Assembly: GCA_019671135.1 (NCBI GenBank)
Contig: JAHRHY010000002.1
Span: forward strand, 1,860,001-1,924,000
Reading direction: 5' to 3'
Source: Linnemannia hyalina
Lineage: Eukaryota > Mortierellomycota > Mortierellomycetes > Mortierellales > Mortierellaceae
Length of the DNA stretch: 64,000 nucleotides
Below, piece by piece: positions 1,793-47,107 of the stretch; the first letter of the stretch is position 1, and the number at the start of each line of letters is the position of its first letter. Both the position numbers and the translations under genes were made by a program. Under the pieces are notes generated by a model. The model searched no databases, was not told where the DNA came from, and saw only the letters and a program-made list of their open reading frames with translations.

Positions 1793-2065
1793 TCATTTTT
1801 TTCTAAGCATATATTCACCAGCGTCTTTCTCGGTAAGTAATCCATCTGCACGTATTTTGTCACGTAGGAGTTGATAAGACGCCTCTAATAACTTTTTTAT
1901 GCCGTTAGTGCCAAATATAGTGGCATCTTGTGGAAAGAGGTTACGATGATAATCTAAAAATTCATCCAAATAGACAAACATACACAATTCCAGATTCTTC
2001 TCATAAATAAAATCTGCAACAACTTCCTGCTGGCGTGCTTTGGTTAAACGTGTAGGCCTGGGCAT
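1793..2065 (-). CDS. Family 1 small basic protein, 90 aa
   Basis: Same 90-codon gene as the reference copy at 8217-8489, here with Tyr39 (FLDYHRN). It lies upstream of the interrupted Rep-like gene on the same strand, and diverges from the zinc-ribbon gene. The frame extends 12 codons further upstream, but the MPRPTRL start is the one shared by all copies. The frame is whole although its element is broken. Confidence 0.75.
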   Translation of the reverse strand: MPRPTRLTKARQQEVVADFIYEKNLELCMFVYLDEFLDYHRNLFPQDATIFGTNGIKKLLEASYQLLRDKIRADGLLTEKDAGEYMLRKK

Positions 2066-2262
2066 GATATATTTGCGGCGATAAGACGTCCAGATGCTCA
2101 TCCCGCTATATACTTATTTGTCAATTACTCCCTTATATAGATACAACTTGACATCTATATTAGATATTGTTGTGTATGGCCCTCAAACACAAACATTGAG
2201 AGAAATATTCCCGGGAAAAAACGTGGTCTATCAAGTATCAAGAGATCACCATTCCGCCTAAT

Positions 2263-2655
2263 ATGCCAAAAAGGATTTGCAACAGATGTGACCAAAAGAA
2301 GCCTTCATATGATTTCTACGATGATTCCAGAAATACATGTAAGGAATGCAAGATAAAGTCTTCCAAGGAGAGCTATCAGGCAAAAAAGAATGGTGGAAAG
2401 CATGTGAAATCTGGGAGATGTAAGAAAGATGAGGATGTGCAACAATCCGATGATGATTTACAGTATGAGAATAAGAAGTTGAAGAAACGTGTCAGAAAAT
2501 TGGAGAAAGGAATGGATAAGATGAACCAAATTATTTCCCAGCAGAAGAAGGAGATTTATATAATAAATGCCTTGATCAAAGGATTTGCCAGTGGTCTCAT
2601 GGTAAATCAAGAGGAAGAATTAGATACAGCCAATGTTGTTGAGCTATCGGAATAA
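2263..2655 (+). CDS. Family 1 zinc-ribbon/coiled-coil protein, 130 aa (b type)
   Basis: Same gene as 8686-9078: C6, C9, C26 and C29 form a CxxC...CKxC zinc ribbon, then a lysine-rich coiled coil. It differs from copies B, C, E and H at Gly83 and Lys96, a pair also seen in the copies at 30977 and 52686. The last two belong to elements with the b-type TIR, while this one is next to an a-type right end with a few b-like bases. Function is unknown. Confidence 0.78.
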   Translation: MPKRICNRCDQKKPSYDFYDDSRNTCKECKIKSSKESYQAKKNGGKHVKSGRCKKDEDVQQSDDDLQYENKKLKKRVRKLEKGMDKMNQIISQQKKEIYIINALIKGFASGLMVNQEEELDTANVVELSE

Positions 2656-2833
2656 ACTTTTAAAATGTGCAATATATATACCTTCCATGAGTAGTATTGT
2701 GGGAATTATCCCCAGGGAATTCATGTACTGTCAACCAAGCTGGTACCATTATCATCATGCTGTATATGCATGAGATTCACCGTGGACACACGTATAAATG
2801 CTATATATGTTATATGAACGTAGGTGTTTTAAA

Positions 2834-3150
2834 ATGGTGGGCATAGCTTAACAAAAGACGAGAAAATAGGTGTACTCCCTCGCCCAAAAAAAAGCGCTCC
2901 AACCTTTTTGTCCTCCCCGATTACCGATATGTAAAATATGTTTATGTTGATACTCTCTCCTTACGTTTTGCTCTTGTAATACTGCTAGATAACTATGTCC
3001 ATTTGGATTCTTTTGCTTTTGTATATGTATTCTTTATAGATATATCTGTTGTCTTTTTAAAAACTCCTTCCATAATTGTCTGTACAAATTCTTGCAACTT
3101 CCATTGGTATTCCATAACATATTTAACTATTTCGACCCAAGACGATTCCC
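2834..3150 (-). repeat. Family 1 right TIR (317 bp)
   Basis: Runs from ATGGTGGGCATAGC to the outer end CGATTCCC. It is the inverted match of the left TIR at 4758-5074, with some b-type bases near the outer end (CTTCCATTGG, ATTTAACTATTTC). It closes the family 1 copy whose Rep-like gene was hit by the gypsy LTR, and abuts a gypsy fragment. Confidence 0.9.
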
Positions 3151-3459
3151 CCACCCTCCTCCTCTTCCTCATTGGACTTCGACTCCTTTGTCTCGGCACA
3201 ACAGTCTGCCCTTGCTGATGCCCGCGAAAGCCTTCTTGAGGCTCAAGTCCAACAGATCAAGCACGCTGATGCCCATCGACGGCCTCACTCCTATAAAGTT
3301 GGCGATCAAGTCTTACTCAGCACCGAGCACATTACCACGGCCTACGACTCCACCCGCCCTGCTGCTTCCCTTCAAGCTCGCTTTTTTGGCGCCTTCACGC
3401 TTCTTCAGCAACGCTCACCAGTGTCCTTTCAGGTTGAGCTTCCACCCACCATGCGCATT
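3151..3459 (+). pseudogene. Gypsy pol fragment between two family 1 ends
   Basis: Translates (frame of 3172-3459) to DFDSFVSAQQSALADARESL ... VSFQVELPPTMRI. It is homologous, not identical, to the region after the integrase core of the gypsy copy at 3-1217 (about nt 625-905 there). It is flanked by the outer end of a right TIR on one side and of a left TIR on the other, so two family 1 elements landed about 310 bp apart in one gypsy element and only this scrap remains. Confidence 0.88.
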
Positions 3460-3776
3460 GGGAAATGTCTTGGGTCGAAATAGTTAAATATGTTATGGAA
3501 TACCAATGGAAGTTGCAAGAATTTGTACAGACGATTATGGAAGGAGTTTTTAAAAAGACAACAGATATATCTATAAAGAATACATATACAAAAGCAAAAG
3601 AATCCAAATGGACATAGTTATCTAGCAGTATTACAAGAGCAAAACGTAAGGAAAGAGTATCAACATAAACATATTTTACATATCGGTAATCGAGGAATAG
3701 AATTGGGGGAGTGCGCTTTTTTTTGGGCGAGGGAGTACACCTGTTTTCTCGTCTTTTGTTAAGCTATGCCCACCAT
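3460..3776 (+). repeat. Family 1 left TIR, b type (317 bp)
   Basis: Starts GGGAAATGTCTTGGG and ends GCCCACCAT. It differs from the a type (4758-5074) at the outer end and at scattered sites, and reads GAGGAATAGAATTGGGGG where the a type has GGGCAGGACAAAAAGG. It is the left end of copy A, whose transposase gene follows. Confidence 0.9.
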
Positions 3777-3863
3777 TTCTTAATATGACATATCTGGGGA
3801 ATTCTAGGGAATAATTGACATAATTACGTGTGTATAATCCCTATTTTTGCAGAAAACGACATT

Positions 3864-4757
3864 ATGGAGACTGATACCGTCGTAAACCCTACGCCAAAGA
3901 AACTTGCACGGCTGCTTGATAATCTGTTGGAGAACGAATGGGGATTTCTTGATGAACCGTGGCCAATGTGCCCAAAGGTCAAGACATTTCATCGTTCAGA
4001 GTTGAAACCAATCGCAAGAATACAGGATATGAAAAAGGTGTTGATGAAGCGACTTGGAGCCATACCGGTGTTTTTCTTTCTATCTACCATCTGGAGTAAA
4101 CACTATTTCCCTGGTCCATATAACGCACTTGAGAAAGGAATTGCATTTCTGTACTTTTTCGTCGCTGGAGAGACTATGGATTCCATGGCACAGTATATGC
4201 CAAAGTCCACATTCCATTTGATATACAGCACATTCGTCAAGGTGGAACGTGCATTATTTGAGAAGGAGATTACACGCTGTTTTGTATCTATGTTCTCCTC
4301 TTTGGAAATTCGTATTCGAACAGCCAATTGGAAAAATCCCCCAATGTTCAAGCATGTAACTCTCTACTTGGATGGTCATGACTCTCGAGCAACATATGGG
4401 GAAGATAAAGCAGCAATGTATTCTTATAAGTTAAAGAAATCGGGTTTGAGAACGCAAGTGGCCATCGATGCTAATGGAATGGTTCTCCTTGTATCCAAAT
4501 CAGCATCATGTCGTGATAACAACGATGGGAAAATGCTACAAGAGATGGGCATTGGCAAGAAGATCGACAGCATGGACTGTATTGCTCTCGATGGAGGATA
4601 TACACAATACATTGGCGATATTGTGGAAAAAGAAAAGTTGGACGAGCGTAACTTCTGTTTTCCCATTCGTAAGAAACGACTACAGCAACTCCACGAAGAG
4701 GAATCCAACTTTAATGCTATGTTTGGTGGATTTCGATCTACGTCAGAAGCAGTCTTT
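3864..4757 (+). pseudogene. Family 1 DDE transposase-like gene of copy A, 5' part
   Basis: Codons 1 to about 298 of the 426-aa protein described at 5162-6442, interrupted exactly at GCAGTCTTT by the outer end of element B. The remainder resumes at 9574 with TTTGGTGAT, so the two parts flank B with a 3-bp TTT target duplication. Val6, Val141 and Leu209 distinguish this older copy. D170, D173 and D243 are present; E295 is just before the break. Confidence 0.92.
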
Positions 4758-5074
4758 GGGAATCGTCTTGGGTCGAAATAGATGAATATGTTATGGAATA
4801 CCAATGGAGGTTGCAAGAATTTGTACAGACAATTATGGAAGGAGTTTTTAAAAAGATAACAAATACATCTATAAAGAGTACATATACAAAAGCAAAAGAA
4901 TCCAAATGGACATAGTTATCTAGCAGTATTACAAGAGCAAAACGTAAGGAGAGAGTATCAACATAAACATATTTTACATATCGGTAATCGGGCAGGACAA
5001 AAAGGTTGGAGCGCTTTTTTTTGGGCGAGGGAGTACACCTGTTTTCTCGTCTTTTGTTAAGCTATGCCCACCAT
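4758..5074 (+). repeat. Left TIR of element B (a type)
   Basis: 317 bp matching 9257-9573 in inverted form. It contains a TTTTTAAAA box near 4844, a T8 tract before GGGCGAGGGAGTAC, and a GTAAGG at 4944 that resembles a splice donor. An open frame of about 50 codons runs inward from the outer end, but it changes freely between TIR types. Confidence 0.93.
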
Positions 5075-5161
5075 GTCTTAATATGACATATCTGGGGAAT
5101 TCTAGGGAATAATTGACATAATTACGTGTGTATAATCCCTATTTTTGCAGAAAACGACATT
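5075..5161 (+). promoter_or_regulatory. Subterminal GGGAAT repeats and leader of the transposase-like gene
   Basis: Holds GGGGAATTCTAGGGAATAA (two GGGAAT words close together, echoing the TIR tip) and then TTTTTGCAG at 5142-5150, which resembles a 3' splice site 11 nt before the first ATG. A 5'-UTR intron from GTAAGG at 4944 to 5150 (207 nt) is possible; this is inference. Confidence 0.4.
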
Positions 5162-6442
5162 ATGGAGACTGATACCATCGTAAACCCTACGCCAAAGAAA
5201 CTTGCACGGCTGCTTGATAATCTGTTGGAGAACGAATGGGGATTTCTTGATGAACCGTGGCCAATGTGCCCAAAGGTCAAGACATTTCATCGTTCAGAGT
5301 TGAAACCAATTGCAAGAATACAGGATATGAAAAAGGTGTTGATGAAGAGACTTGGAGCCATACCAGTGTTTTTCTTTCTATCTACCATCTGGAGTAAACA
5401 CTATTTCCCTGGTCCATATAACGCACTTGAGAAAGGAATTGCATTCTTGTACTTTTTCGTCGCTGGAGAGACTATGGATTCCATGGCACAGTATATGCCA
5501 AAGTCCACATTCCATTTGATATACAGCACATTCGTCAAGGTGGAACGTGCATTATTTGAGAAGGAGATTACACGCTGTTTTGCATCTATGTTCTCTTCGT
5601 TGGAAATTCGTATTCGAACAGCCAATTGGAAAAATCCCCCAATGTTCAAGCATGTAACTCTCTACTTGGATGGTCATGACTCTCGAGCAACATATGGGGA
5701 AGATAAAGCAGCAATGTATTCTTATAAGTTAAAGAAATCGGGTTTGAGAACGCAAGTGGCCATCGATGCCAATGGAATGGTTCTCTTTGTATCCAAATCA
5801 GCGTCATGTCATGATAACAACGATGGGAAAATGTTACAAGAGATGGGCATTGGCAAGAAGATGGACAGCATGGACTGTATTGCTCTCGATGGAGGATATA
5901 CACAATACATTGGCGATATTGTGGAAAAAGAAAAGTTGGACGAGCGTAACTTCTGTTTTCCCATCCGTAAGAAACGACTACAGCAACTCCACGAAGAGGA
6001 ATCCAACTTTAATGCTATGTTTGGTGGATTTCGATCTACGTCAGAGGCTGTCTTTGGTGATCTCATGAAAACATTCGCCAAGTTTAATAACAAGGAGATT
6101 GTAAGAGTTGGATCCAAAAAGGAGTTTAATCTTACATTCCGCCTTTGTCTTCTGTTGCTAAATATTCGCAACTTTGTTAAAGCAGTGGACATCGAAGAGC
6201 AGCCACATCATCGTGGATGGATGGAAGAAGGAGTAGATTATCCACGAGAAAGGCAACTTGTCCCAGAGTTAACTCAAACCGTTACAGTACAAAACAAACT
6301 GGAAAATGGTCTTGAGTTACAAAGAATGCAAGAGAAATTTGTAGGAATAGATGTTGCTTCAGATGATGATGATGAACAAACGTCAAATAAGGATGATGAC
6401 GAGGAAATGTCAAACCACGAAGATGATAATACCAGTCTATAA
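5162..6442 (+). CDS. DDE transposase-like protein, family 1 (426 aa), element B
   Basis: Probable transposase acting in the nucleus on the element's own TIRs. The central part reads TLYLDGHDSRATY (D170, D173), MYSYKLKKSGLRTQV (185-199), CIALDGGYTQYI (D243) and FGGFRSTSEAVFGDL (E295). That order of D, D-G-GY and R..E followed by F is the layout of the DDE_Tnp_4 / IS5-Harbinger superfamily; assignment is by motif and should be tested by profile search. The N-terminus is helical and lacks a clear HTH; the C-terminus is acidic (DDDDE, DDDEE). The frame is open upstream, but METDTIVN is the first ATG and aligns with the starts of family 2 and 3 homologues. It converges on the Rep-like gene with 25 bp between stops. 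Confidence 0.85.
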   Translation: METDTIVNPTPKKLARLLDNLLENEWGFLDEPWPMCPKVKTFHRSELKPIARIQDMKKVLMKRLGAIPVFFFLSTIWSKHYFPGPYNALEKGIAFLYFFVAGETMDSMAQYMPKSTFHLIYSTFVKVERALFEKEITRCFASMFSSLEIRIRTANWKNPPMFKHVTLYLDGHDSRATYGEDKAAMYSYKLKKSGLRTQVAIDANGMVLFVSKSASCHDNNDGKMLQEMGIGKKMDSMDCIALDGGYTQYIGDIVEKEKLDERNFCFPIRKKRLQQLHEEESNFNAMFGGFRSTSEAVFGDLMKTFAKFNNKEIVRVGSKKEFNLTFRLCLLLLNIRNFVKAVDIEEQPHHRGWMEEGVDYPRERQLVPELTQTVTVQNKLENGLELQRMQEKFVGIDVASDDDDEQTSNKDDDEEMSNHEDDNTSL

Positions 6443-6467
6443 TTAACAAAAGTCTTTTAAAAACCTC
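6443..6467. terminator. Convergent 3' ends with TTTTAAAAA box
   Basis: Only 25 bp separate the stop codons of two converging genes, including CTTTTAAAAACC. Copy C has the same 25 bp; copies A, E, F and H have 35 bp (with an extra CCAAAGTTTT-like stretch). Transcripts must overlap, so antisense pairing of 3' ends is likely. Termination function is inferred from position only. Confidence 0.35.
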
Positions 6468-8171
6468 TCAAACGCGCTCGCACTTCATATCAAGTATATT
6501 ATGTGAATTAACCACTCTAATCGCTCGAAATGTCATGAACGGCACACCTTTCACACTACCAATTCTCTGTAGACCTTGAAGATGCTCCACACGCCATGGT
6601 GTCCAAATCTTTGCCAACGATTTTCCTGCGCGCACCTTTATGCCACATGCTGTAATAAAATGCCAACGATGTTCAGAACGAAATTCTTTGAGACCGGCCG
6701 CTACAATGGTATACTCCTCATCAGGCTTTAGAATTCGGTCGGCTGCAGTATACATCGAAACATGAATAGTTTTCAGATGTAATACATTTGTATCTACTGT
6801 ATCTTCATCATATTCGAAGATATCTGCAAGTGGGGCACTATACCTGTTATGAACACGCTTTGGCCAGGCAATAGAGATGTTGTCAACTTCCACAATTCCA
6901 ACTTTGCTAAATTTACGAATGACGTTAGAAGATGCATCCCTCGAAGGAAACATTCCTTTTTGCGAGCCAGCAACTAGCGTGATGGCAGTACATCCAGGCT
7001 CGCGCTTAAATGTCCTTATTTCGCCCAAAATAACTTCATCTTTCCCATTTACCTCTTCTACATGTCCTTCCACAAAATATATAGGTCTATCGTTAAAGGA
7101 ATAGTTAGCCAGCAAAAGTGTAATAAGCTCGGGGTTCTTAAAGTTTTGCCACATATATCCATACTTCTTAGAGGTTACCGAATTCCACCAGTGACAATAA
7201 GCAAACAGTTTCTCATGTGGAAAATGTACAGCCACCATCGAGGTAATGCATTTTGCACGTTCCTCCCACTGCATCTCAAAGGAACATTTAAATGTTTTAC
7301 ATTTCTTCAAGAGATTCTTTGTCTTGTCCATTTCGTCTTGATATGACTGAAGAGATCTCAAAGATGAACCTTCAAACGTCAGCTCGATACGACTATAACC
7401 ATGCTTTTTATATTTTTTAACTCGTCGTCCAAATGCTGTTTCTTTCTCCACCAAATCCTCCAAACGTGAACCAAGGCTCTTTCGCACCTCGGCACTTTCC
7501 AAAATCTGGACAAATTTGTTATACACCTTATATCGGATATTCTTTGTATCCCCTTTTCGACCTCTCCATGAAATACAATGATGTCCTACTCTTCCCACAT
7601 CATCGACAATTTTTGTAGTTTTCGTTTGTTTTAGCAATCTCTCCACGTGCAGTCGTGTGGTAATACGTGTACAATCATAGGCAAAGTCTATGTCATGTAA
7701 AGCAATGCCGCTCTCGTTCAAGCTAGACAACATGTTCGTCAAAATTGGCACAACAATCTTTGCGCGGGAAAAATCTAAAGAAACCTTGATGGCAATAAAT
7801 CCCTGTTGGTATTCTTTTCCAACAAACAACTTTCTATGGCGTTTGACCATGCGCGGAGAAAAATAGTTATCATCCATTTTAACCTGCCTAGCATCGACCA
7901 ACTTTACAGATTCCACATTTAAATCGGTGTGGTTAAATGCATCGCGCAGTTCAGCAATGTACTTTCCAATTGCTGTACCTTTAGTGGTATCGTCAGCAAA
8001 GTTATATATACCCCAAAAGATGATGGAATCGCAAAAGAGTTTGGAGAATTTGGTGAATCCTTTTCTCTCCACACTGCCAAATGGTGCTGACTGTAGATTA
8101 CCCACATTTGACAGCAAATGGGAAATTTCGTTGATGGCTTTGTTTATCAGAGATTCTTTTGTTGGCGACAT
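6468..8171 (-). CDS. Rep-like protein, family 1 (567 aa), element B
   Basis: Not a transposase of any family I recognise. Three motifs occur in the order seen in Rep_trans-type rolling-circle initiators (pT181/filamentous phage/Tn916 group): LHDIDFAYD (158-166), CISWRGRKG...IRYKVYNK (199-219) and YSRIELTF (259-266). They resemble the xxDxAxD, GSR...YdK and R.E blocks of that family. The same blocks are kept in the family 2 homologue (59293-60945). No nicking tyrosine can be assigned by eye. Residues 324-410 (FAYCHWWNS, YSFNDRPIYFVE, CTAITLVAG.KGM) are the best conserved between families; the C-terminal 150 residues are unassigned. The ATG lies about 30 nt after a TTTTAAAA box. A role in copying the element is inference. 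Confidence 0.82.
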   Translation of the reverse strand: MSPTKESLINKAINEISHLLSNVGNLQSAPFGSVERKGFTKFSKLFCDSIIFWGIYNFADDTTKGTAIGKYIAELRDAFNHTDLNVESVKLVDARQVKMDDNYFSPRMVKRHRKLFVGKEYQQGFIAIKVSLDFSRAKIVVPILTNMLSSLNESGIALHDIDFAYDCTRITTRLHVERLLKQTKTTKIVDDVGRVGHHCISWRGRKGDTKNIRYKVYNKFVQILESAEVRKSLGSRLEDLVEKETAFGRRVKKYKKHGYSRIELTFEGSSLRSLQSYQDEMDKTKNLLKKCKTFKCSFEMQWEERAKCITSMVAVHFPHEKLFAYCHWWNSVTSKKYGYMWQNFKNPELITLLLANYSFNDRPIYFVEGHVEEVNGKDEVILGEIRTFKREPGCTAITLVAGSQKGMFPSRDASSNVIRKFSKVGIVEVDNISIAWPKRVHNRYSAPLADIFEYDEDTVDTNVLHLKTIHVSMYTAADRILKPDEEYTIVAAGLKEFRSEHRWHFITACGIKVRAGKSLAKIWTPWRVEHLQGLQRIGSVKGVPFMTFRAIRVVNSHNILDMKCERV

Positions 8172-8216
8172 AATAAAAGGTATACTTAGGTTTTAAAAAG
8201 TTTATAATTTAGGTCG
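8172..8216 (-). promoter_or_regulatory. TTTTAAAA box upstream of Rep-like gene
   Basis: The 45-bp gap between the 90-aa stop and the Rep-like ATG contains a TTTTTAAAA-type palindrome (about 8192-8200) roughly 25-30 nt before the start. Equivalent boxes precede the homologous genes of family 2. It may be a core promoter element or a processing signal between two co-directional genes. Confidence 0.45.
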
Positions 8217-8489
8217 TCATTTTTTTCTAAGCATATATTCACCAGCGTCTTTCTCGGTAAGTAATCCATCTGCACGTATTTTGTCACGTAGGAGTTGATA
8301 AGATGCCTCTAATAACTTTTTTATGCCGTTAGTGCCAAATATAGTGGCATCTTGTGGAAAGAGGTTACGATGATGATCTAAAAATTCATCCAAATAGACA
8401 AACATACACAATTCCAGATTCTTCTCATAAATAAAATCTGCAACAACTTCCTGCTGGCGTGCTTTGGTTAAACGTGTAGGCCTGGGCAT
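8217..8489 (-). CDS. Small basic protein, family 1 (90 aa), element B
   Basis: Unrecognised. Starts MPRPTRLTKARQQEVV, a basic helix-forming N-terminus; the middle LCMFVYLDEFLDHHRNLFP is hydrophobic/aromatic; the C-terminus is lysine- and glutamate-rich, ending MLRKK. No zinc, signal or membrane motif is evident. It lies 45 bp upstream of the Rep-like gene on the same strand. Family 2 has an 81-aa gene in the same place with similar size and charge (58992-59237), so a partner of the Rep-like protein is a reasonable guess. It is kept open in every copy that retains it in full, which argues for function. Confidence 0.75.
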   Translation of the reverse strand: MPRPTRLTKARQQEVVADFIYEKNLELCMFVYLDEFLDHHRNLFPQDATIFGTNGIKKLLEASYQLLRDKIRADGLLTEKDAGEYMLRKK

Positions 8490-8685
8490 AATATATTTGC
8501 GGCGATAAGACGTCTAAATGGTCATCCCCCTATATACCTATTTGTCAATTACTCCCTTGAATAGATACAACTTGACATCTATATTAGATATTGTTGTGTA
8601 TGCCCTCAAACACAAACATTGAGAGAAATATTCCCGGGAAAAAACGTGGTATATCAACTATCAAGAGATCACCATTCCGCCTAAT
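8490..8685. promoter_or_regulatory. Bidirectional promoter region between the 90-aa and 130-aa genes
   Basis: 196 bp between divergent starts. CCTATATACC (near 8530) lies about 40-50 bp from the 90-aa ATG and GTGGTATATCAAC (near 8650) about 35-40 bp before the 130-aa ATG; both look like TATA elements. A TTCCCGGGAA palindrome sits near 8631. The arrangement is the same in all family 1 copies. Confidence 0.5.
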
Positions 8686-9078
8686 ATGCCAAAAAGGATT
8701 TGCAACAGGTGTGACCAAAAGAAGCCTTCATATGATTTCTACGATGATTCCAGAAATACATGTAAGGAATGCAAGATAAAGTCTTCCAAGGAGAGCTATC
8801 AGGCAAAAAAGAATGGTGGAAAGCATGTGAAATCTGGGAGATGTAAGAAAGATGAGGATGTGCAACAATCCGATGATGATTTACAGTATGAGAATAAGAA
8901 GTTAAAGAAACGTGTCAGAAAATTGGAGAAAGAAATGGATAAGATGAACCAAATTATTTCCCAGCAGAAGAGGGAGATTTATATAATAAATGCCTTGATC
9001 AAAGGATTTGCCAGTGGTCTCATGGTAAATCAAGAGGAAGAATTAGATACAGCCAATGTTGTTGAGCTATCGGAATAA
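8686..9078 (+). CDS. Zinc-ribbon/coiled-coil protein, family 1 (130 aa), element B
   Basis: C6-x2-C9 and C26-x2-C29 (ICNRCDQKKP, FYDD...CKECK) form a zinc ribbon of the CxxC...KP..FY...CKxC type also met in phage and large-virus DNA-binding proteins. A lysine/serine linker and an acidic patch (QQSDDD) follow. Residues 68-100 (ENKKLKKRVRKLEKEMDKMN) form a heptad-like coiled coil, so a dimer is likely. The acidic tail ends VVELSE. A DNA-binding accessory or regulator of the element is inferred. It diverges from the 90-aa gene and is followed by a TTTTAAAA box at the 3' end. Confidence 0.8.
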   Translation: MPKRICNRCDQKKPSYDFYDDSRNTCKECKIKSSKESYQAKKNGGKHVKSGRCKKDEDVQQSDDDLQYENKKLKKRVRKLEKEMDKMNQIISQQKREIYIINALIKGFASGLMVNQEEELDTANVVELSE

Positions 9079-9256
9079 ACTTTTAAAATGTGCAATATAT
9101 ATACCTTCCATAAGTAGTATTATGGGAATTATTCCCAGGGAATTCATGTACTGTCAACCAAGCTGGTACCATTATCATCATGATGTATATGCATGAGATT
9201 CACCGGGGACACACGTATAAATGCTATATATGTTATATGAACGTAGGTGTTTTAAA
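9079..9256. promoter_or_regulatory. Subterminal region with GGGAATTATTCCC palindrome
   Basis: Between the 130-aa stop and the right TIR. It holds ACTTTTAAAATG just after the stop, GGGAATTATTCCC at 9124-9136 followed by AGGGAATTC, and GTGTTTTAAAATG next to the TIR. The GGGAAT words repeat the TIR tip and mirror those near the left TIR, so they may be internal transposase binding sites. Confidence 0.4.
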
Positions 9257-9573
9257 ATGGTGGGCATAGCTTAACAAAAGACGAGAAAACAGGTGTACTC
9301 CCTCGCCCAAAAAAAAGCGCTCCAACCTTTTTGTCCTGCCCGATTACCGATATGTAAAATATGTTTATGTTGATACTCTCTCCTTACGTTTTGCTCTTGT
9401 AATACTGCTAGATAACTATGTCCATTTGGATTCTTTTGCTTTTGTATATGTACTCTTTATAGATGTATTTGTTATCTTTTTAAAAACTCCTTCCATAATT
9501 GTCTGTACAAATTCTTGCAACCTCCATTGGTATTCCATAACATATTCATCTATTTCGACCCAAGACGATTCCC
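9257..9573 (-). repeat. Right TIR of element B (a type)
   Basis: Inverted copy of 4758-5074 ending CGATTCCC, followed by TTTGGTGAT of the interrupted copy A transposase gene. Confidence 0.93.
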
Positions 9574-9963
9574 TTTGGTGATCTTATGAAAACATTCGCC
9601 AAGTTTAATAATAAGGAGATTGTAAGAGTTGGATCCAAAAAGGAGTTTAATCTTACATTCCGCCTTTGTCTTCTCTTGCTAAATGTTCGCAACTTTGTCA
9701 AAGCAGTCGACATCGAAGAGCTGCCACATCATCGTGGATGGATGGAAGAAGGAGTGGATTATCCACGAGAAAGGCAACTTATTCCAGAGTTAACACAAAC
9801 CATTACAGTACAAAACAAACTGGAGAATGGTCTTGAGTTACAAAGAATGCAAGAGAAATTTGTAGGAATAGATGTTGCTTCAGATGATGATGATGAACAA
9901 ACGTCAAATAAGGATGATGACGAGGAAATGTCAAACCACGAAGATGATAATACCAGTCTATAA
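9574..9963 (+). pseudogene. Family 1 DDE transposase-like gene of copy A, 3' part
   Basis: Resumes with TTTGGTGAT and then MKTFAKFNNKEIV through the acidic C-terminus, ending at the usual stop. It differs slightly from copy B (NVRNF, EELPHH, LIPELTQTIT), consistent with copy A being older. The first three bases duplicate the TTT at 4755-4757. Confidence 0.9.
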
Positions 9964-10309: not shown

Positions 10310-12374
10310 GGGAATCGTCTTGGGTCGAAATAGATGAATATGTTATGGAATACCAATGGAGGTTGCAAGAATTTGTACAGACAATTATGGAAGGAGTTTT
10401 TAAAAAGATAACAAATACATCTATAAAGAGTACATATACAAAAGCAAAAGAATCCAAATGGACATAGTTATCTAGCAGTATTACAAGAGCAAAACGTAAG
10501 GAGAGAGTATCAACATAAACATATTTTACATATCGGTAATCGGGCAGGACAAAAAGGTTGGAGCGCTTTTTTTTGGGCGAGGGAGTACCCAACCCACGCA
10601 TTGGAATATTAAAGTAGATCAAGAGTAGATTATAAAATAAGAGATACATAATAGGTCAACGTGGGGAATATATTTGTCGCGGATATCAAAGCCAATCTGT
10701 AAAACAAAATACACATCTAAATGGGAATCGTCTTGGGTCGAAATAGATGAATATGTTATGGAATACCAATGGAGGTTGCAAGAATTTGTACAGACAATTA
10801 TGGAAGGAGTTTTTAAAAAGATAACAAATACATCTATAAAGAGTACATATACAAAAGCAAAAGAATCCAAATGGACATAGTTATCTAGCAGTATTACAAG
10901 AGCAAAACGTAAGGAGAGAGTATCAACATAAACATATTTTACATATCGGTAATCGGGCAGGACAAAAAGGTTGGAGCGCTTTTTTTTGGGCGAGGGAGTA
11001 CCCAACCCACGCATTGGAATATTAAAGTAGATCAAGAGTAGATTATAAAATAAGAGATACATAATAGGTCAACGTGGGGAATATATTTGTCGCGGATATC
11101 AAAGCCAATCTGTAAAACAAAATACACATCTAAATGGGAATCGTCTTGGGTCGAAATAGATGAATATGTTATGGAATACCAATGGAGGTTGCAAGAATTT
11201 GTACAGACAATTATGGAAGGAGTTTTTAAAAAGATAACAAATACATCTATAAAGAGTACATATACAAAAGCAAAAGAATCCAAATGGACATAGTTATCTA
11301 GCAGTATTACAAGAGCAAAACGTAAGGAGAGAGTATCAACATAAACATATTTTACATATCGGTAATCGGGCAGGACAAAAAGGTTGGAGCGCTTTTTTTT
11401 GGGCGAGGGAGTACCCAACCCACGCATTGGAATATTAAAGTAGATCAAGAGTAGATTATAAAATAAGAGATACATAATAGGTCAACGTGGGGAATATATT
11501 TGTCGCGGATATCAAAGCCAATCTGTAAAACAAAATACACATCTAAATGGGAATCGTCTTGGGTCGAAATAGATGAATATGTTATGGAATACCAATGGAG
11601 GTTGCAAGAATTTGTACAGACAATTATGGAAGGAGTTTTTAAAAAGATAACAAATACATCTATAAAGAGTACATATACAAAAGCAAAAGAATCCAAATGG
11701 ACATAGTTATCTAGCAGTATTACAAGAGCAAAACGTAAGGAGAGAGTATCAACATAAACATATTTTACATATCGGTAATCGGGCAGGACAAAAAGGTTGG
11801 AGCGCTTTTTTTTGGGCGAGGGAGTACCCAACCCACGCATTGGAATATTAAAGTAGATCAAGAGTAGATTATAAAATAAGAGATACATAATAGGTCAACG
11901 TGGGGAATATATTTGTCGCGGATATCAAAGCCAATCTGTAAAACAAAATACACATCTAAATGGGAATCGTCTTGGGTCGAAATAGATGAATATGTTATGG
12001 AATACCAATGGAGGTTGCAAGAATTTGTACAGACAATTATGGAAGGAGTTTTTAAAAAGATAACAAATACATCTATAAAGAGTACATATACAAAAGCAAA
12101 AGAATCCAAATGGACATAGTTATCTAGCAGTATTACAAGAGCAAAACGTAAGGAGAGAGTATCAACATAAACATATTTTACATATCGGTAATCGGGCAGG
12201 ACAAAAAGGTTGGAGCGCTTTTTTTTGGGCGAGGGAGTACCCAACCCACGCATTGGAATATTAAAGTAGATCAAGAGTAGATTATAAAATAAGAGATACA
12301 TAATAGGTCAACGTGGGGAATATATTTGTCGCGGATATCAAAGCCAATCTGTAAAACAAAATACACATCTAAAT
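10310..12374 (+). repeat. Five direct 413-bp units of the family 1 end
   Basis: Units start at 10310, 10723, 11136, 11549 and 11962, each beginning GGGAATCGTC; copy C starts in the same register at 12375. Each unit is the outer 279 bp of the a-type TIR (to GAGGGAGTAC) plus a 134-bp spacer (CCAACCCACGC ... ACATCTAAAT) that is absent from element B. The units appear identical by eye. The open frames of 68 and 147 codons that repeat here are by-products of the TIR and are not listed as genes. Confidence 0.95.
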
Positions 12375-12691
12375 GGGAATCGTCTTGGGTCGAAATAGAT
12401 GAATATGTTATGGAATACCAATGGAGGTTGCAAGAATTTGTACAGACAATTATGGAAGGAGTTTTTAAAAAGATAACAAATACATCTATAAAGAGTACAT
12501 ATACAAAAGCAAAAGAATCCAAATGGACATAGTTATCTAGCAGTATTACAAGAGCAAAACGTAAGGAGAGAGTATCAACATAAACATATTTTACATATCG
12601 GTAATCGGGCAGGACAAAAAGGTTGGAGCGCTTTTTTTTGGGCGAGGGAGTACACCTGTTTTCTCGTCTTTTGTTAAGCTATGCCCACCAT
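12375..12691 (+). repeat. Left TIR of element C
   Basis: a-type 317-bp TIR, continuous with the 413-bp array on its left. Confidence 0.92.
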
Positions 12692-12778
12692 GTCTTAATA
12701 TGACATATCTGGGGAATTCTAGGGAATAATTGACATAATTACGTGTGTATAATCCCTATTTTTGCAGAAAACGACATT

Positions 12779-14059
12779 ATGGAGACTGATACCATCGTAA
12801 ACCCTACGCCAAAGAAACTTGCACGGCTGCTTGATAATCTGTTGGAGAACGAATGGGGATTTCTTGATGAACCGTGGCCAATGTGCCCAAAGGTCAAGAC
12901 ATTTCATCGTTCAGAGTTGAAACCAATTGCAAGAATACAGGATATGAAAAAGGTGTTGATGAAGAGACTTGGAGCCATACCAGTGTTTTTCTTTCTATCT
13001 ACCATCTGGAGTAAACACTATTTCCCTGGTCCATATAACGCACTTGAGAAAGGAATTGCATTCTTGTACTTTTTCGTCGCTGGAGAGACTATGGATTCCA
13101 TGGCACAGTATATGCCAAAGTCCACATTCCATTTGATATACAGCACATTCGTCAAGGTGGAACGTGCATTATTTGAGAAGGAGATTACACGCTGTTTTGC
13201 ATCTATGTTCTCTTCGTTGGAAATTCGTATTCGAACAGCCAATTGGAAAAATCCCCCAATGTTCAAGCATGTAACTCTCTACTTGGATGGTCATGACTCT
13301 CGAGCAACATATGGGGAAGATAAAGCAGCAATGTATTCTTATAAGTTAAAGAAATCGGGTTTGAGAACGCAAGTGGCCATCGATGCCAATGGAATGGTTC
13401 TCTTTGTATCCAAATCAGCGTCATGTCATGATAACAACGATGGGAAAATGTTACAAGAGATGGGCATTGGCAAGAAGATGGACAGCATGGACTGTATTGC
13501 TCTCGATGGAGGATATACACAATACATTGGCGATATTGTGGAAAAAGAAAAGTTGGACGAGCGTAACTTCTGTTTTCCCATCCGTAAGAAACGACTACAG
13601 CAACTCCACGAAGAGGAATCCAACTTTAATGCTATGTTTGGTGGATTTCGATCTACGTCAGAGGCTGTCTTTGGTGATCTCATGAAAACATTCGCCAAGT
13701 TTAATAACAAGGAGATTGTAAGAGTTGGATCCAAAAAGGAGTTTAATCTTACATTCCGCCTTTGTCTTCTGTTGCTAAATATTCGCAACTTTGTTAAAGC
13801 AGTGGACATCGAAGAGCAGCCACATCATCGTGGATGGATGGAAGAAGGAGTAGATTATCCACGAGAAAGGCAACTTGTCCCAGAGTTAACTCAAACCGTT
13901 ACAGTACAAAACAAACTGGAAAATGGTCTTGAGTTACAAAGAATGCAAGAGAAATTTGTAGGAATAGATGTTGCTTCAGATGATGATGATGAACAAACGT
14001 CAAATAAGGATGATGACGAGGAAATGTCAAACCACGAAGATGATAATACCAGTCTATAA
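12779..14059 (+). CDS. DDE transposase-like protein, family 1 (426 aa), element C
   Basis: Same protein as 5162-6442, no amino-acid difference seen (including His217 and Met234). D170, D173, D243 and E295 are present. Converges on the Rep-like gene with 25 bp between stops. Copies B and C must be very recent relatives. Confidence 0.85.
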   Translation: METDTIVNPTPKKLARLLDNLLENEWGFLDEPWPMCPKVKTFHRSELKPIARIQDMKKVLMKRLGAIPVFFFLSTIWSKHYFPGPYNALEKGIAFLYFFVAGETMDSMAQYMPKSTFHLIYSTFVKVERALFEKEITRCFASMFSSLEIRIRTANWKNPPMFKHVTLYLDGHDSRATYGEDKAAMYSYKLKKSGLRTQVAIDANGMVLFVSKSASCHDNNDGKMLQEMGIGKKMDSMDCIALDGGYTQYIGDIVEKEKLDERNFCFPIRKKRLQQLHEEESNFNAMFGGFRSTSEAVFGDLMKTFAKFNNKEIVRVGSKKEFNLTFRLCLLLLNIRNFVKAVDIEEQPHHRGWMEEGVDYPRERQLVPELTQTVTVQNKLENGLELQRMQEKFVGIDVASDDDDEQTSNKDDDEEMSNHEDDNTSL

Positions 14060-14084
14060 TTAACAAAAGTCTTTTAAAAACCTC

Positions 14085-15788
14085 TCAAACGCGCTCGCAC
14101 TTCATATCAAGTATATTATGTGAATTAACCACTCTAATCGCTCGAAATGTCATGAACGGCACACCTTTCACACTACCAATTCTCTGTAGACCTTGAAGAT
14201 GCTCCACACGCCATGGTGTCCAAATCTTTGCCAACGATTTTCCTGCGCGCACCTTTATGCCACATGCTGTAATAAAATGCCAACGATGTTCAGAACGAAA
14301 TTCTTTGAGACCGGCCGCTACAATGGTATACTCCTCATCAGGCTTTAGAATTCGGTCGGCTGCAGTATACATCGAAACATGAATAGTTTTCAGATGTAAT
14401 ACATTTGTATCTACTGTATCTTCATCATATTCGAAGATATCTGCAAGTGGGGCACTATACCTGTTATGAACACGCTTTGGCCAGGCAATAGAGATGTTGT
14501 CAACTTCCACAATTCCAACTTTGCTAAATTTACGAATGACGTTAGAAGATGCATCCCTCGAAGGAAACATTCCTTTTTGCGAGCCAGCAACTAGCGTGAT
14601 GGCAGTACATCCAGGCTCGCGCTTAAATGTCCTTATTTCGCCCAAAATAACTTCATCTTTCCCATTTACCTCTTCTACATGTCCTTCCACAAAATATATA
14701 GGTCTATCGTTAAAGGAATAGTTAGCCAGCAAAAGTGTAATAAGCTCGGGGTTCTTAAAGTTTTGCCACATATATCCATACTTCTTAGAGGTTACCGAAT
14801 TCCACCAGTGACAATAAGCAAACAGTTTCTCATGTGGAAAATGTACAGCCACCATCGAGGTAATGCATTTTGCACGTTCCTCCCACTGCATCTCAAAGGA
14901 ACATTTAAATGTTTTACATTTCTTCAAGAGATTCTTTGTCTTGTCCATTTCGTCTTGATATGACTGAAGAGATCTCAAAGATGAACCTTCAAACGTCAGC
15001 TCGATACGACTATAACCATGCTTTTTATATTTTTTAACTCGTCGTCCAAATGCTGTTTCTTTCTCCACCAAATCCTCCAAACGTGAACCAAGGCTCTTTC
15101 GCACCTCGGCACTTTCCAAAATCTGGACAAATTTGTTATACACCTTATATCGGATATTCTTTGTATCCCCTTTTCGACCTCTCCATGAAATACAATGATG
15201 TCCTACTCTTCCCACATCATCGACAATTTTTGTAGTTTTCGTTTGTTTTAGCAATCTCTCCACGTGCAGTCGTGTGGTAATACGTGTACAATCATAGGCA
15301 AAGTCTATGTCATGTAAAGCAATGCCGCTCTCGTTCAAGCTAGACAACATGTTCGTCAAAATTGGCACAACAATCTTTGCGCGGGAAAAATCTAAAGAAA
15401 CCTTGATGGCAATAAATCCCTGTTGGTATTCTTTTCCAACAAACAACTTTCTATGGCGTTTGACCATGCGCGGAGAAAAATAGTTATCATCCATTTTAAC
15501 CTGCCTAGCATCGACCAACTTTACAGATTCCACATTTAAATCGGTGTGGTTAAATGCATCGCGCAGTTCAGCAATGTACTTTCCAATTGCTGTACCTTTA
15601 GTGGTATCGTCAGCAAAGTTATATATACCCCAAAAGATGATGGAATCGCAAAAGAGTTTGGAGAATTTGGTGAATCCTTTTCTCTCCACACTGCCAAATG
15701 GTGCTGACTGTAGATTACCCACATTTGACAGCAAATGGGAAATTTCGTTGATGGCTTTGTTTATCAGAGATTCTTTTGTTGGCGACAT
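14085..15788 (-). CDS. Rep-like protein, family 1 (567 aa), element C
   Basis: Same protein as 6468-8171 with no amino-acid difference seen. All three Rep_trans-like blocks are intact (LHDIDFAYD, YKVYNK, RIELTF). See the element B entry for the reasoning on function. Confidence 0.82.
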   Translation of the reverse strand: MSPTKESLINKAINEISHLLSNVGNLQSAPFGSVERKGFTKFSKLFCDSIIFWGIYNFADDTTKGTAIGKYIAELRDAFNHTDLNVESVKLVDARQVKMDDNYFSPRMVKRHRKLFVGKEYQQGFIAIKVSLDFSRAKIVVPILTNMLSSLNESGIALHDIDFAYDCTRITTRLHVERLLKQTKTTKIVDDVGRVGHHCISWRGRKGDTKNIRYKVYNKFVQILESAEVRKSLGSRLEDLVEKETAFGRRVKKYKKHGYSRIELTFEGSSLRSLQSYQDEMDKTKNLLKKCKTFKCSFEMQWEERAKCITSMVAVHFPHEKLFAYCHWWNSVTSKKYGYMWQNFKNPELITLLLANYSFNDRPIYFVEGHVEEVNGKDEVILGEIRTFKREPGCTAITLVAGSQKGMFPSRDASSNVIRKFSKVGIVEVDNISIAWPKRVHNRYSAPLADIFEYDEDTVDTNVLHLKTIHVSMYTAADRILKPDEEYTIVAAGLKEFRSEHRWHFITACGIKVRAGKSLAKIWTPWRVEHLQGLQRIGSVKGVPFMTFRAIRVVNSHNILDMKCERV

Positions 15789-15833
15789 AATAAAAGGTAT
15801 ACTTAGGTTTTAAAAAGTTTATAATTTAGGTCG

Positions 15834-16106
15834 TCATTTTTTTCTAAGCATATATTCACCAGCGTCTTTCTCGGTAAGTAATCCATCTGCACGTATTTTG
15901 TCACGTAGGAGTTGATAAGATGCCTCTAATAACTTTTTTATGCCGTTAGTGCCAAATATAGTGGCGTCTTGTGGAAAGAGATTACGATGATAGTCCAGAA
16001 ATTCATCCAAATAGATAAACATACACAATTCCAGATTCTTTGCATAGATAAAATCGGCAACAACTTCCCGCTGGCGCGATTTAGTTAAACGTGATGGCCT
16101 GGGCAT
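15834..16106 (-). CDS. Small basic protein, family 1 (90 aa), element C, chimeric
   Basis: The first 39 residues differ from B (Ser5, Ser10, Arg13, Ala22, Ile31, Tyr39) and match the diverged copy D at 19369-19581 where the two overlap; the rest matches B. The D-like tract runs from about 15965 to about 16157, into the upstream region. This is the pattern of gene conversion or recombination between elements. The frame remains open. Confidence 0.78.
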   Translation of the reverse strand: MPRPSRLTKSRQREVVADFIYAKNLELCMFIYLDEFLDYHRNLFPQDATIFGTNGIKKLLEASYQLLRDKIRADGLLTEKDAGEYMLRKK

Positions 16107-16301
16107 AATAATTACGGAGTTAAGACTTTAAGATCCGTGTTCCATAATGTACTGCTTTGTCAATTACTCCCTTGAATAGATACAACTTGACATCTATATT
16201 AGATATTGTTGTATATGGCCCTCAAACACAAACATTGAGAGAAATATTCCCGGGAAAAAACGTGGTATATCAAGTATCAAGAGATCACCATTCCGCCTAA
16301 T
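16107..16301. promoter_or_regulatory. Divergent promoter region of element C, part replaced
   Basis: The half next to the 90-aa gene (TAATTACGGAGTTAAGAC ... TGTACTGC) differs from B and lacks its CCTATATACC box; from about 16158 (TGTCAATTACTCCC) it matches B again, including GTGGTATATCAAG before the 130-aa gene. Confidence 0.45.
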
Positions 16302-16694
16302 ATGCCAAAAAGGATTTGCAACAGATGTGACCAAAAGAAGCCTTCATATGATTTCTACGATGATTCCAGAAATACATGTAAGGAATGCAAGATAAAGTCT
16401 TCCAAGGAGAGCTATCAGGCAAAAAAGAATGGTGGAAAGCATGTGAAATCTGGGAGATGTAAGAAAGATGAGGATGTGCAACAATCCGATGATGATTTAC
16501 AGTATGAGAATAAGAAGTTAAAGAAACGTGTCAGAAAATTAGAGAAAGAAATGGATAAGATGAACCAAATTATTTCCCAGCAGAAGAGGGAGATTTATAT
16601 AATAAATGCCTTGATCAAAGGATTTGCCAGTGGTCTCATGGTAAATCAAGAGGAAGAATTAGATACAGCCAATGTTGTTGAGCTATCGGAATAA
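16302..16694 (+). CDS. Zinc-ribbon/coiled-coil protein, family 1 (130 aa), element C
   Basis: As 8686-9078, with C6, C9, C26, C29, Ser15, Glu83 and Arg96. No amino-acid difference from B seen. Confidence 0.8.
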   Translation: MPKRICNRCDQKKPSYDFYDDSRNTCKECKIKSSKESYQAKKNGGKHVKSGRCKKDEDVQQSDDDLQYENKKLKKRVRKLEKEMDKMNQIISQQKREIYIINALIKGFASGLMVNQEEELDTANVVELSE

Positions 16695-16872
16695 ACTTTT
16701 AAAATGTGCAATATATATACCTTCCATAAGTAGTATTATGGGAATTATTCCCAGGGAATTCATGTACTGTCAACCAAGCTGGTACCATTATCATCATGAT
16801 GTATATGCATGAGATTCACCGTGGACACACGTATAAATGCTATATATGTTATATGAACGTAGGTGTTTTAAA

Positions 16873-17189
16873 ATGGTGGGCATAGCTTAACAAAAGACGA
16901 GAAAACAGGTGTACTCCCTCGCCCAAAAAAAAGCGCTCCAACCTTTTTGTCCTGCCCGATTACCGAGATGTAAAATATGTTTATGTTGATACTCTTTACC
17001 TACGTTTTGCTCTTATAATACTGCTAGATAACTATGTCCATTTGGATCCTTTTGCTTTTGTATATGTACTCTTTATAGATATATTTGTTATCTTTTTAAA
17101 AACTCCTTCCATAATTGTCTGTACAAATTCTTGCAACTTCCATTGGTATTCCATAACATATTTACCTATTTCGACCCAAGACGATTCCC
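16873..17189 (-). repeat. Right TIR of element C, diverged type
   Basis: Same length as other TIRs and ends CGATTCCC, but carries private changes (CCGAGATG, CTTTACCTACG, CTTATAATACTG, ATTTACCTATTTC). The two TIRs of C therefore do not match each other as B's do, which fits its recombinant right part. Confidence 0.9.
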
Positions 17190-20942: not shown

Positions 20943-21259
20943 GGGAATCGTCTTGGGTCGAAATAGATGAATATGTTATGGAATACCAATGGAGGTTGCA
21001 AGAATTTGTACAGACAATTATGGAAGGAGTTTTTAAAAAGATAACAAATACATCTATAAAGAGTACATATACAAAAGCAAAAGAATCCAAATGGACATAG
21101 TTATCTAGCAGTATTACAAGAGCAAAACGTAAGGAGAGAGTATCAACATAAACATATTTTACATATCGGTAATCGGGCAGGACAAAAAGGTTGGAGCGCT
21201 TTTTTTTGGGCGAGGGAGTACACCTGTTTTCTCGTCTTTTGTTAAGCTATGCCCACCAT
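20943..21259 (+). repeat. TIR of element E next to the 130-aa gene
   Basis: a-type 317-bp TIR reading inward to GCCCACCAT, then TTTTAAAACACC. Confidence 0.92.
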
Positions 21260-21437
21260 TTTAAAACACCTACGTTCATATAACATATATAGCATTTATA
21301 CGTGTGTCCCCGGTGAATCTCATGCATATACATCATGATGATAATGGTACCAGCTTGGTTGACAGTACATGAATTCCCTGGGAATAATTCCCATAATACT
21401 ACTTATGGAAGGTATATATATTGCACATTTTAAAAGT

Positions 21438-21830
21438 TTATTCCGATAGCTCAACAACATTGGCTGTATCTAATTCTTCCTCTTGATTTACCATGAGACC
21501 ACTGGCAAATCCTTTGATCAAGGCATTTATTATATAAATCTCCCTCTTCTGCTGGGAAATAATTTGGTTCATCTTATCCATTTCTTTCTCCAATTTTCTG
21601 ACACGTTTCTTTAACTTCTTATTCTCATACTGTAAATCATCATCGGATTGTTGCACATCCTCATCTTTCTTACATCTCCCAGATTTCACATGCTTTCCAC
21701 CATTCTTTTTTGCCTGATAGCTCTCCTTGGAAGACTTTATCTTGCATTCCTTACATGTATTTCTGGAATCATCGTAGAAATCATATAAAGGCTTCTTTTG
21801 GTCACACCTGTTGCAAATCCTTTTTGGCAT
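21438..21830 (-). CDS. Zinc-ribbon/coiled-coil protein, family 1 (130 aa), element E
   Basis: As 8686-9078 but Leu15 (KKPLYDFY), shared with copy H. Zinc ligands C6, C9, C26 and C29 and the coiled coil are intact. Confidence 0.8.
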   Translation of the reverse strand: MPKRICNRCDQKKPLYDFYDDSRNTCKECKIKSSKESYQAKKNGGKHVKSGRCKKDEDVQQSDDDLQYENKKLKKRVRKLEKEMDKMNQIISQQKREIYIINALIKGFASGLMVNQEEELDTANVVELSE

Positions 21831-22026
21831 ATTAGGCGGAATGGTGATCTCTTGATAGTTGATATACCACGTTTTTTCCCGGGAATATTTCTCTCAATGT
21901 TTGTGTTTGAGGGCATACACAACAATATCTAATATAGATGTCAAGTTGTATCTATTCAAGGGAGTAATTGACAAATAGGTATATAGGGGGATGAGCATTT
22001 AGACGTCTTATCGCCGCAAATATATT

Positions 22027-22299
22027 ATGCCCAGGCCTACACGTTTAACCAAAGCACGCCAGCAGGAAGTTGTTGCAGATTTTATTTATGAGAAGAATCT
22101 GGAATTGTGTATGTTTGTCTATTTGGATGAATTTTTAGATTATCATCGTAACCTCTTTCCACAAGATGCCACTATATTTGGCACTAACGGCATAAAAAAG
22201 TTATTAGAGGCATCTTATCAACTCCTACGTGACAAAATACGTGCAGATGGATTACTTACCGAGAAAGACGCTGGTGAATATATGCTTAGAAAAAAATGA
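22027..22299 (+). CDS. Small basic protein, family 1 (90 aa), element E
   Basis: As 8217-8489 with Tyr39. Preceded by TATATAGGGGG in the divergent promoter region and followed, after 45 bp with a TTTTTAAAA box, by the Rep-like gene. Confidence 0.75.
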   Translation: MPRPTRLTKARQQEVVADFIYEKNLELCMFVYLDEFLDYHRNLFPQDATIFGTNGIKKLLEASYQLLRDKIRADGLLTEKDAGEYMLRKK

Positions 22300-22344
22300 C
22301 GACCTAAATTATAGACTTTTTAAAACCTAAGTATACCTTTTATT

Positions 22345-24048: not shown

Positions 24049-24083
24049 GAGGTTTTTAAAAACTTTGGAAAGACTTTTGTTAA

Positions 24084-25364: not shown

Positions 25365-25451
25365 AATGTCGTTTTCTGCAAAAATAGGGATTATACACAC
25401 GTAATTATGTCAATTATTCCCTAGAATTCCCCAGATATGTCATATTAAGAC

Positions 25452-25768
25452 ATGGTGGGCATAGCTTAACAAAAGACGAGAAAACAGGTGTACTCCCTCG
25501 CCCAAAAAAAAGCGCTCCAACCTTTTTGTCCTGCCCGATTACCGATATGTAAAATATGTTTATGTTGATACTCTCTCCTTACGTTTTGCTCTTGTAATAC
25601 TGCTAGATAACTATGTCCATTTGGATTCTTTTGCTTTTGTATATGTACTCTTTATAGATGTATTTGTTATCTTTTTAAAAACTCCTTCCATAATTGTCTG
25701 TACAAATTCTTGCAACCTCCATTGGTATTCCATAACATATTCATCTATTTCGACCCAAGACGATTCCC
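25452..25768 (-). repeat. TIR of element E next to the transposase-like gene
   Basis: a-type 317-bp TIR reading outward to CGATTCCC, continuous with the array on its right. Confidence 0.92.
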
Positions 25769-41793: not shown

Positions 41794-41955
41794 CTACCGA
41801 AAAAAATATAAAAATATATTTGTATTCTCAACTATGTGCTTGCTATATGATAGATACCATCCTACATGCTGTTGTGTATGCAGTTAAGTATAAGCCTTTT
41901 TAAAAAATTGTTATTGTTGGTTAACGTCATGACAATCCAATACATAAATATTATT

Positions 41956-47105: not shown

Positions 47106-47107
47106 CT

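Follow-up and report, generated by a model that had tools for sequence, protein, structure and literature searches.

Helitrons carry an HUH nickase and no DDE transposase. Cut-and-paste elements with DDE_Tnp_4 transposases were supposed, in an earlier note made from the sequence of the DNA considered here, usually to carry at most a Myb-like partner, and this proves too narrow: ISL2EU has a YqaJ exonuclease (PMC4482050), and SET and TET/JBP genes also occur in Harbinger lineages (PMC12730594). According to an account of 2026, the Rep_trans replication initiators seem to occur in bacteria alone, apart from distant relatives in archaea (PMC13107129). A literature search covering titles and the beginnings of abstracts (Repbase and most subscription papers lay outside it) brought up no case in which a DDE transposon is paired with a protein similar to Rep_trans or gene II. 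The subject of this study is a transposon that appears to have one. It lies, in several copies, in a window of 64,000 nt (bases 1860001-1924000 of contig 12) from the genome (51.5 Mb, 50 contigs) of the soil fungus Linnemannia hyalina, an isolate from cornfield soil (PMC8444964), and it encodes, besides its transposase (DDE), a 567-aa protein that I will call REP.

I read the element as an autonomous, recently active transposon of the PHIS group (PIF/Harbinger-ISL2EU-Spy) with a eukaryotic nickase, similar to Rep_trans proteins and to the gene II protein (gpII) of filamentous phages, that amplifies the element, and would give this reading a probability of roughly 0.55. What seems to be new, judging from the literature search, is the kind of partner gene; the PHIS type of element is known. 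In copy B, whose tips read GGGAATCG...CGATTCCC, the DDE gene on the plus strand and the REP gene on the minus strand stand tail to tail, with p90 (minus strand) directly upstream of REP, followed by ZN130 (plus strand). The features of copy B and the other complete copies are these:

4758-5074, plus strand: left terminal inverted repeat (TIR) of copy B, 317 nt long, with tip GGGAATCG and 100% complementarity to 9257-9573
5162-6442, plus strand: DDE_Tnp_4 transposase, 426 aa (Pfam PF13359, conserved triad)
6468-8171, minus strand: REP, 567-aa Rep_trans/gpII-like protein (AlphaFold2 model, Foldseek, active-site conservation)
8217-8489, minus strand: p90, 90-aa protein (open reading frame present in every complete copy)
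8686-9078, plus strand: ZN130, 130-aa protein (open reading frame; two CxxC pairs and a coiled coil; zinc ribbon by eye)
9257-9573, minus strand: right TIR of copy B, 317 nt, perfect
12375-17189, plus strand: complete copy C, with five further 413-bp terminal units before it
20943-25768, minus strand (inverted): complete copy E, with three successive tips on each side
53785-58610, plus strand: complete copy H

The four complete copies B, C, E and H, with the same gene order, had been recognized in the earlier note, as had the limits of copy B (4758-9573), and both points were borne out; the relative orientation of the genes is the same as well. So was the transposase size of 426 aa, which is that given by the first ATG, at 5162; the frame can also be read as 438 aa from an upstream GTG at 5126. 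Copies C, E and H encode DDE (426 aa) and REP (567 aa) proteins with 99% identity or more (100% when rounded) to those of copy B, and among the complete copies of the window p90 is 93-100% and ZN130 99-100% identical to the copy B protein. Copy B itself interrupts the transposase gene of a further copy, which is left with one part at 3864-4763 and the other at 9574-9960; the insertion duplicated 3 bp, TTT. The genome contains dozens of copies with intact REP genes.

The modeled fold of REP (AlphaFold2, pLDDT 93.4) supports a TATA-binding protein (TBP)-like fold of the kind found in Rep_trans rolling-circle initiators. The check by AlphaFold and Foldseek that the earlier note had proposed for the 567-aa protein gave RepDE (4cwe_A, E 5.3e-4) as the best match in the Protein Data Bank, with TBP itself also among the best structural matches. 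In a library of viral structures, seven matches reached E 1e-3 or better, none of them named in the tables; named matches of weaker score include two replication proteins of inoviruses (E 2.7e-3 and E 1.1e-2) and several TBPs of giant viruses.

The active site can be compared with that of RepD, for which 14 residues have been named (PMC4797284): the metal ligands D46, D142 and E214, the nucleophile Y191, and R189, K193, E196, T176, Y178, G180, R140, A144, D146 and R212, where E196 corresponds to Q184 in RepSTK1. The motifs in REP are D48, D160-x-D162-x-A164-x-D166, K215-x-Y217-x-K219-x-x-Q222 and R261-x-E263. Across 72 REP relatives, D166, K215, Y217, K219, R261 and E263 are invariant, and D48, D162 and Q222 are kept in 70; overall, 55 of the 567 positions are conserved at 90% or more. 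Matching residues by motif and strand order, which was done after the alignment had been seen, gives nine of the 14 RepD residues a counterpart in at least 70 of the 72 relatives. One of the nine is substituted (R189 by K215), and Q222 agrees with RepSTK1, not with RepD. The position of RepD R140 is Asp in REP, that of A144 is Ala in 43 of the 72 relatives, and no match was placed in REP for T176, Y178 or G180. The active-site residues fall on model strands 46-57, 156-168, 212-218 and 259-267, and would presumably converge in space. Fold (from the model) and active site (from the sequence) together support the view that REP is a TBP-fold tyrosine nickase.

Searches by sequence say less. REP of the window matched no Pfam family, and PF02486 (Rep_trans) was absent from the best 25 of 50 Pfam families for the 72 REP members. 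Searches with these members of Pfam, NCBIfam and PHROGs (best 25 of 50, 27 and 56 families) returned noise, with a single exception: P0087, an Apophysomyces protein 32% identical to REP, matches phrog_702 (E 1.6e-6, residues 133-288). None of the other 71 aligned relatives matches phrog_702 at E up to 1. The M13 gene II protein falls in the same family (E 3.5e-84, residues 135-410), the sole match among four phage records; I take phrog_702 to be equivalent to the Phage_CRI family of PMC4797284. In an alignment of eight gene-II proteins, D143, Y197, K199, R243 and E245 are invariant, Tyr-197 being the covalent residue of M13 gene II (PMC5405960), and the spacing resembles that of REP, 54 positions vs 55 from D to Y and 46 vs 44 from Y to R. 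When a gene-II profile was run by hmmsearch against 122 REP sequences and decoys (122 reversed, 122 shuffled and 120 transposase sequences), the top five scores were all fungal REP. The best was P0087 (8.1 bits, E 0.029), ahead of a best decoy of 3.0 bits; averaged over the top 20, REP scored 2.25 bits and the decoys -0.31 to -0.66. In these five proteins the gene-II Tyr-x-Lys aligns to the fungal Y-N-K, in one of them only within a segment of -2.4 bits.

Elsewhere the searches were negative. Searched with a Rep_trans profile, the genome of L. hyalina gave no match up to E 10, while the control, Bacillus subtilis, did give matches; the REP profile found nothing in a sequence search of solved structures, where a single REP gave one chance match (E 0.64); two distant REP members had no phage relatives by tblastn; and no REP relatives were found in the viral contigs or prokaryote genomes searched, nor in plasmids beyond two irrelevant matches (E 3 and 6). 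XacF1 Rep was dropped as a Rep_trans reference, as it matches REP_ORF2-G2P and weakly Rep_1, not Rep_trans. The claim that the 567-aa protein is Rep-like is supported by its fold, its active-site pattern and one relative tied to the M13 gene-II family, and not by ordinary family searches or direct profile-profile comparison. REP is likely a remote relative of the Rep_trans/gene-II group.

The pairing of REP with a DDE gene is not peculiar to this family. The window contains a related one, family 3, with these genes and a tandem array that belongs to the main family:

59158-60945, plus strand: family 3 REP, 595 aa, 37% identical to the 567-aa REP
60983-62242, minus strand: family 3 DDE, 419 aa (PF13359, E 1.4e-6), 46% identical to the copy B DDE and tail to tail with REP
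47592-49379, minus strand: second family 3 REP, with DDE pieces at 35173-35985 and 47105-47551
10310-12374, plus strand: array of five tandem 413-bp terminal units, with tips at 10310, 10723, 11136, 11549 and 11962, then 12375

Two family 2 elements in tandem interrupt the DDE gene beside the second family 3 REP. Among the best 12 of 78 genomic matches to family 3 REP, all 12 loci have REP facing a DDE gene, full length in nine and represented by its 3' part in three. Family 3 has an 81-aa protein where p90 would be, a possible counterpart (the two sequences, compared with each other alone, show 28% identity across 25 aa, E 0.001), and ZN130 was not matched inside its elements. A further DDE family, of 459 aa, has a 753-aa protein in place of REP, an acidic partner for which Pfam gave no match up to E 0.1. 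In other genomes, nine contigs are common to REP and DDE relatives, as matched by length and source label, among them one of Mortierella alpina; in Haplosporangium bisporale the two relatives bear consecutive locus tags (BGZ52_005333 and BGZ52_005334). The length matching compared 118 distinct REP values with 119 of the 120 listed DDE relatives (172 found), and found nine matches, where 300 shifted lists gave 2.4 on average (sd 1.5, maximum 10). Length alone is only suggestive; the weight comes from the agreement of source labels in nine of nine and from the consecutive tags, and on this sequence evidence the linkage extends to other Mortierellaceae.

Both REP families appear to be maintained. 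Ratios of nonsynonymous to synonymous substitution rates lie between 0.12 and 0.33 for copies of the 567-aa REP (REP1; pairs differing by more than one change) and between 0.08 and 0.25 in nine of ten pairs of the family 3 protein (REP3), the tenth, a near-identical pair, giving 3.3 from seven changes. Of 79 REP1 matches in the host genome, 36 span residues 1-567, 34 of them stop-free; for REP3, 31 of 78 span 1-595, and 29 are stop-free. The near-identity of copies and the purifying selection support the recent activity that had been surmised for the element.

The transposase frame from 5126 matches PF13359 with E 6.4e-12 (45.8 bits vs a cut-off of 24.8), which supports its first description as DDE-like, and the triad is intact (D170, D243 and E295, each present in 98-100% of 110 aligned sequences); a sequence search of solved structures gave no match. 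Among the 120 relatives listed, those named come from Mortierellomycotina and Mucorales (Apophysomyces, Cunninghamella). Many relatives in other fungi (P0190-P0242) carry an extra chromodomain, PF00385, which was not matched in the window's copy.

To examine target duplications I considered as resolved those insertions for which the uninterrupted site was found in another copy (joined flanks with 0-3 mismatches), a count that excludes single-ended flanks and tip pairs with no empty site among the sequences fetched. All five show a 3-bp duplication (TTT, TGT, ATT, ATA and ATA), and all five are located in other copies, judging by eye from their flanks against copy B. On these features the element is placed in the PHIS group, because of its DDE_Tnp_4 type of transposase, its TIRs and the length of its duplications, which in this group is 0-3 bp. 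It falls outside PIF/Harbinger proper (definitions in PMC4482050 and PMC12730594), since TWA is found in none of the five duplications, a small sample, and the 567-, 90- and 130-aa proteins have no Myb/SANT match in Pfam at E up to 1. Nor was the YqaJ partner of ISL2EU matched at the same threshold. No Pfam family matches p90 at E up to 1, and all Pfam matches of ZN130 fall below curated cut-offs (best E 0.0027).

From outer tip to outer tip the five resolved insertions measure 4816, 5652, 6891, 5227 and 5239 bp, a spread that arises because many copies have extra tandem terminal units of 413 bp, each made of 279 bp of TIR and a 134-bp spacer. The spacer was found only in arrays of these units, in the window and in 20 genome loci. 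The number of units varies among copies and is sometimes equal at both ends. One insertion, at 1803-8693 of locus L013, has three tips on the left and four on the right, yet a clean ATT duplication. Gene conversion between repeats could have spread the units. I considered the arrays as proof of rolling-circle copying and rejected them as such, since nested insertion and unequal exchange explain the C16 array, in which an identical junction (tip, then catgatgataatgg) occurs at positions 1903 and 6339 of locus L011, spaced 4436 bp.

The copies are unevenly distributed. After removal of two second pieces from 79 matches, 77 REP1 places remain, 69 of them within 100 kb of a contig end, against the 11-19% expected from the share of the genome that lies there; the corresponding figure for REP3 is 36 of 45 (78 matches less 27 cross-matches to REP1 and six second pieces), against the same expectation. 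The enrichment is partly bias, since repeats break assemblies. The remaining eight REP1 places form a single cluster on contig 12, at 1.866-1.939 Mb, which covers most of the window. As the only REP1 cluster that is remote from contig ends, it may represent a refuge in the chromosome interior, the site of an old fusion between chromosomes, or a misjoin. Telomere arrays with the 10-base unit AACCCTAAAA were found at 11 of 46 inspected contig ends and, among the matches listed, at the end of contig 4, and the repeat was not found inside the window. A REP place lies within 50 kb of nine of these 12 telomeric ends; none is listed at the start of C21, the start of C26 or the end of C11. At the start of contig 49 (L009) a tip lies at 582 and the telomere array ends near 485, and in L013 and L021 telomere arrays pass, by eye, into element-like sequence within about 100 bp.

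Two head-to-tail copies of another DDE_Tnp_4 element, with the 753-aa acidic protein (36554-40826 and 41866-46138; period 5312 bp, proteins 100% identical), lie inside a family 3 transposase gene. A family 3 element whose inverted repeats extend, in pieces, over about 2.2 kb has a perfect palindrome at each of its outer ends (32963-33415 and 51398-51848; arms of 211-212 bp, spacer 29 bp); by eye, contig 4 starts with the same sequence. Ty3/gypsy-like integrase fragments with a chromodomain-like tail are visible among the open reading frames at 3-1217 and 29384-30457.

If REP copies the element, as I infer, it would nick one strand, either within the terminal repeats or at an origin inside the element, and remain covalently attached through Y217 to the 5' end, while the free 3' OH would prime strand-displacement synthesis by host polymerases. 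The element would be replicated either in its chromosomal place or after excision, and the DDE transposase, acting on the TIRs that start GGGAATCG, would then insert the extra copy with a 3-bp target duplication. Excised integrative and conjugative elements use their Rep_trans relaxases similarly. At a guess, p90 and ZN130 would be DNA-binding helpers. Several results weigh against such copying by a Rep_trans-like nickase. The assembly contains no tip-to-tip circle junction, though transient forms may escape an assembly, and copy B has no perfect hairpin with a stem of at least 9 (0-3 in 20 shuffles). As to kinship, the reverse search, with a fungal REP profile against gene II, gave no separation, nor did a decoy test with nine Rep_trans proteins, and hhalign was not significant with either the Rep_trans or the gene-II alignments (probability 0.7 for gene II).

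REP may instead be a true nickase that aids cut-and-paste movement, nicking or resecting the transposon ends or the target, such as sites close to telomeres or within other copies, and so guiding insertion. The crowding of REP1 and REP3 near contig ends and telomeres would suit such a protein, as would the location of all five resolved insertions in other copies. The same pattern could result, however, from assembly breakage at repeats or from selection or recombination near telomeres, and the 459-aa DDE family occupies the same regions with its 753-aa partner and no REP of its own seen. I regard this explanation as unlikely, if worth keeping in mind.

A more modest role, improbable in my view, is that of a DNA-binding regulator or structural partner that has the TBP-like fold and does not nick, like the Myb/SANT protein of PIF/Harbinger. 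TBP is, after all, among the best structural matches of REP, and the partners in PHIS elements are usually DNA-binding proteins (PMC4482050). A mere binder, however, would not need the residues that are invariant in REP (Y217, K219, K215, D166, R261 and E263, in 72 of 72 relatives) or nearly so (D48 and D162, in 70). REP might also be cargo, or a host gene trapped between the ends and unrelated to transposition. Cargo capture is common in fungi, although nothing here is direct evidence for it, and the idea is hard to credit given that the convergent DDE/REP pair recurs in two families only 37-46% identical, that nine contigs are common to REP and DDE relatives (including the consecutive tags of H. 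bisporale), and that REP is under purifying selection.

Returning to REP as a nickase that amplifies its element, a broader claim can be made tentatively, at somewhat less than even odds: that this is a eukaryotic DDE transposon whose own TBP-fold tyrosine nickase starts its replication, through rolling-circle or strand-displacement synthesis, after which the copy is inserted. It would constitute a copy-and-paste class distinct from Helitrons, and its nickase would be the first eukaryotic member of the Rep_trans/gene-II group, one that an ancestor of Mucoromycota probably acquired from a phage or a plasmid. If true, a eukaryotic branch within a transposon would extend the TBP-fold nickase to all three domains, and would explain in concrete, testable terms how cut-and-paste elements increase in number and why PHIS elements retain unexplained partner genes.

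The element can now be set beside its closest described counterparts. With Rep-Arvir, initiators of archaeal viruses and plasmids described in 2026, REP appears to share the TBP-like fold group, and it shares recognition by structure, not sequence; Rep-Arvir belongs to archaeal replicons and has another Tyr motif, and the accessible account describes no transposase. With the Rep_trans initiators (RepD of pT181-type plasmids, RepSTK1, the inovirus RstA type) it shares the pattern D...D-x-A-x-D...Y-x-K-x-x-E/Q...R-x-E and, as the model suggests, the TBP-like curved sheet. It differs from them in being eukaryotic and within a transposon, in having no recognizable sequence similarity, in the Lys and Asp that stand for Arg189 and Arg140 of RepD, in the distance from Tyr to the R of R-x-E (44 positions, vs 21 in RepD and 15 in RepSTK1), and in a conserved motif near its C terminus, FAYCHWWN, which inspection by eye did not reveal in nine aligned Rep_trans proteins. 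The gene II protein of filamentous phages is close to REP in its D-Y and Y-R spacing and its nicking Tyr and through the one relative matched, whereas 71 of 72 relatives are unmatched and profile-profile comparison is not significant. ISL2EU likewise joins a DDE transposase to a nuclease-like partner, YqaJ in its case, and its duplications are 2-bp AT, not 3 bp. With the PHIS superfamily as a whole (PIF/Harbinger, Pangu, Nuwa, ISL2EU, Spy, PHISTA) the element shares a DDE_Tnp_4 transposase with intact triad, a partner open reading frame, TIRs with G as first base and a 3-bp target duplication. Its own five duplications fit none of TWA, CWG and TNA (one alone fits ANT), its long repeats come with tandem 413-bp units, and its partner, in place of Myb/SANT or YqaJ, appears to be of the Rep_trans/gpII type.

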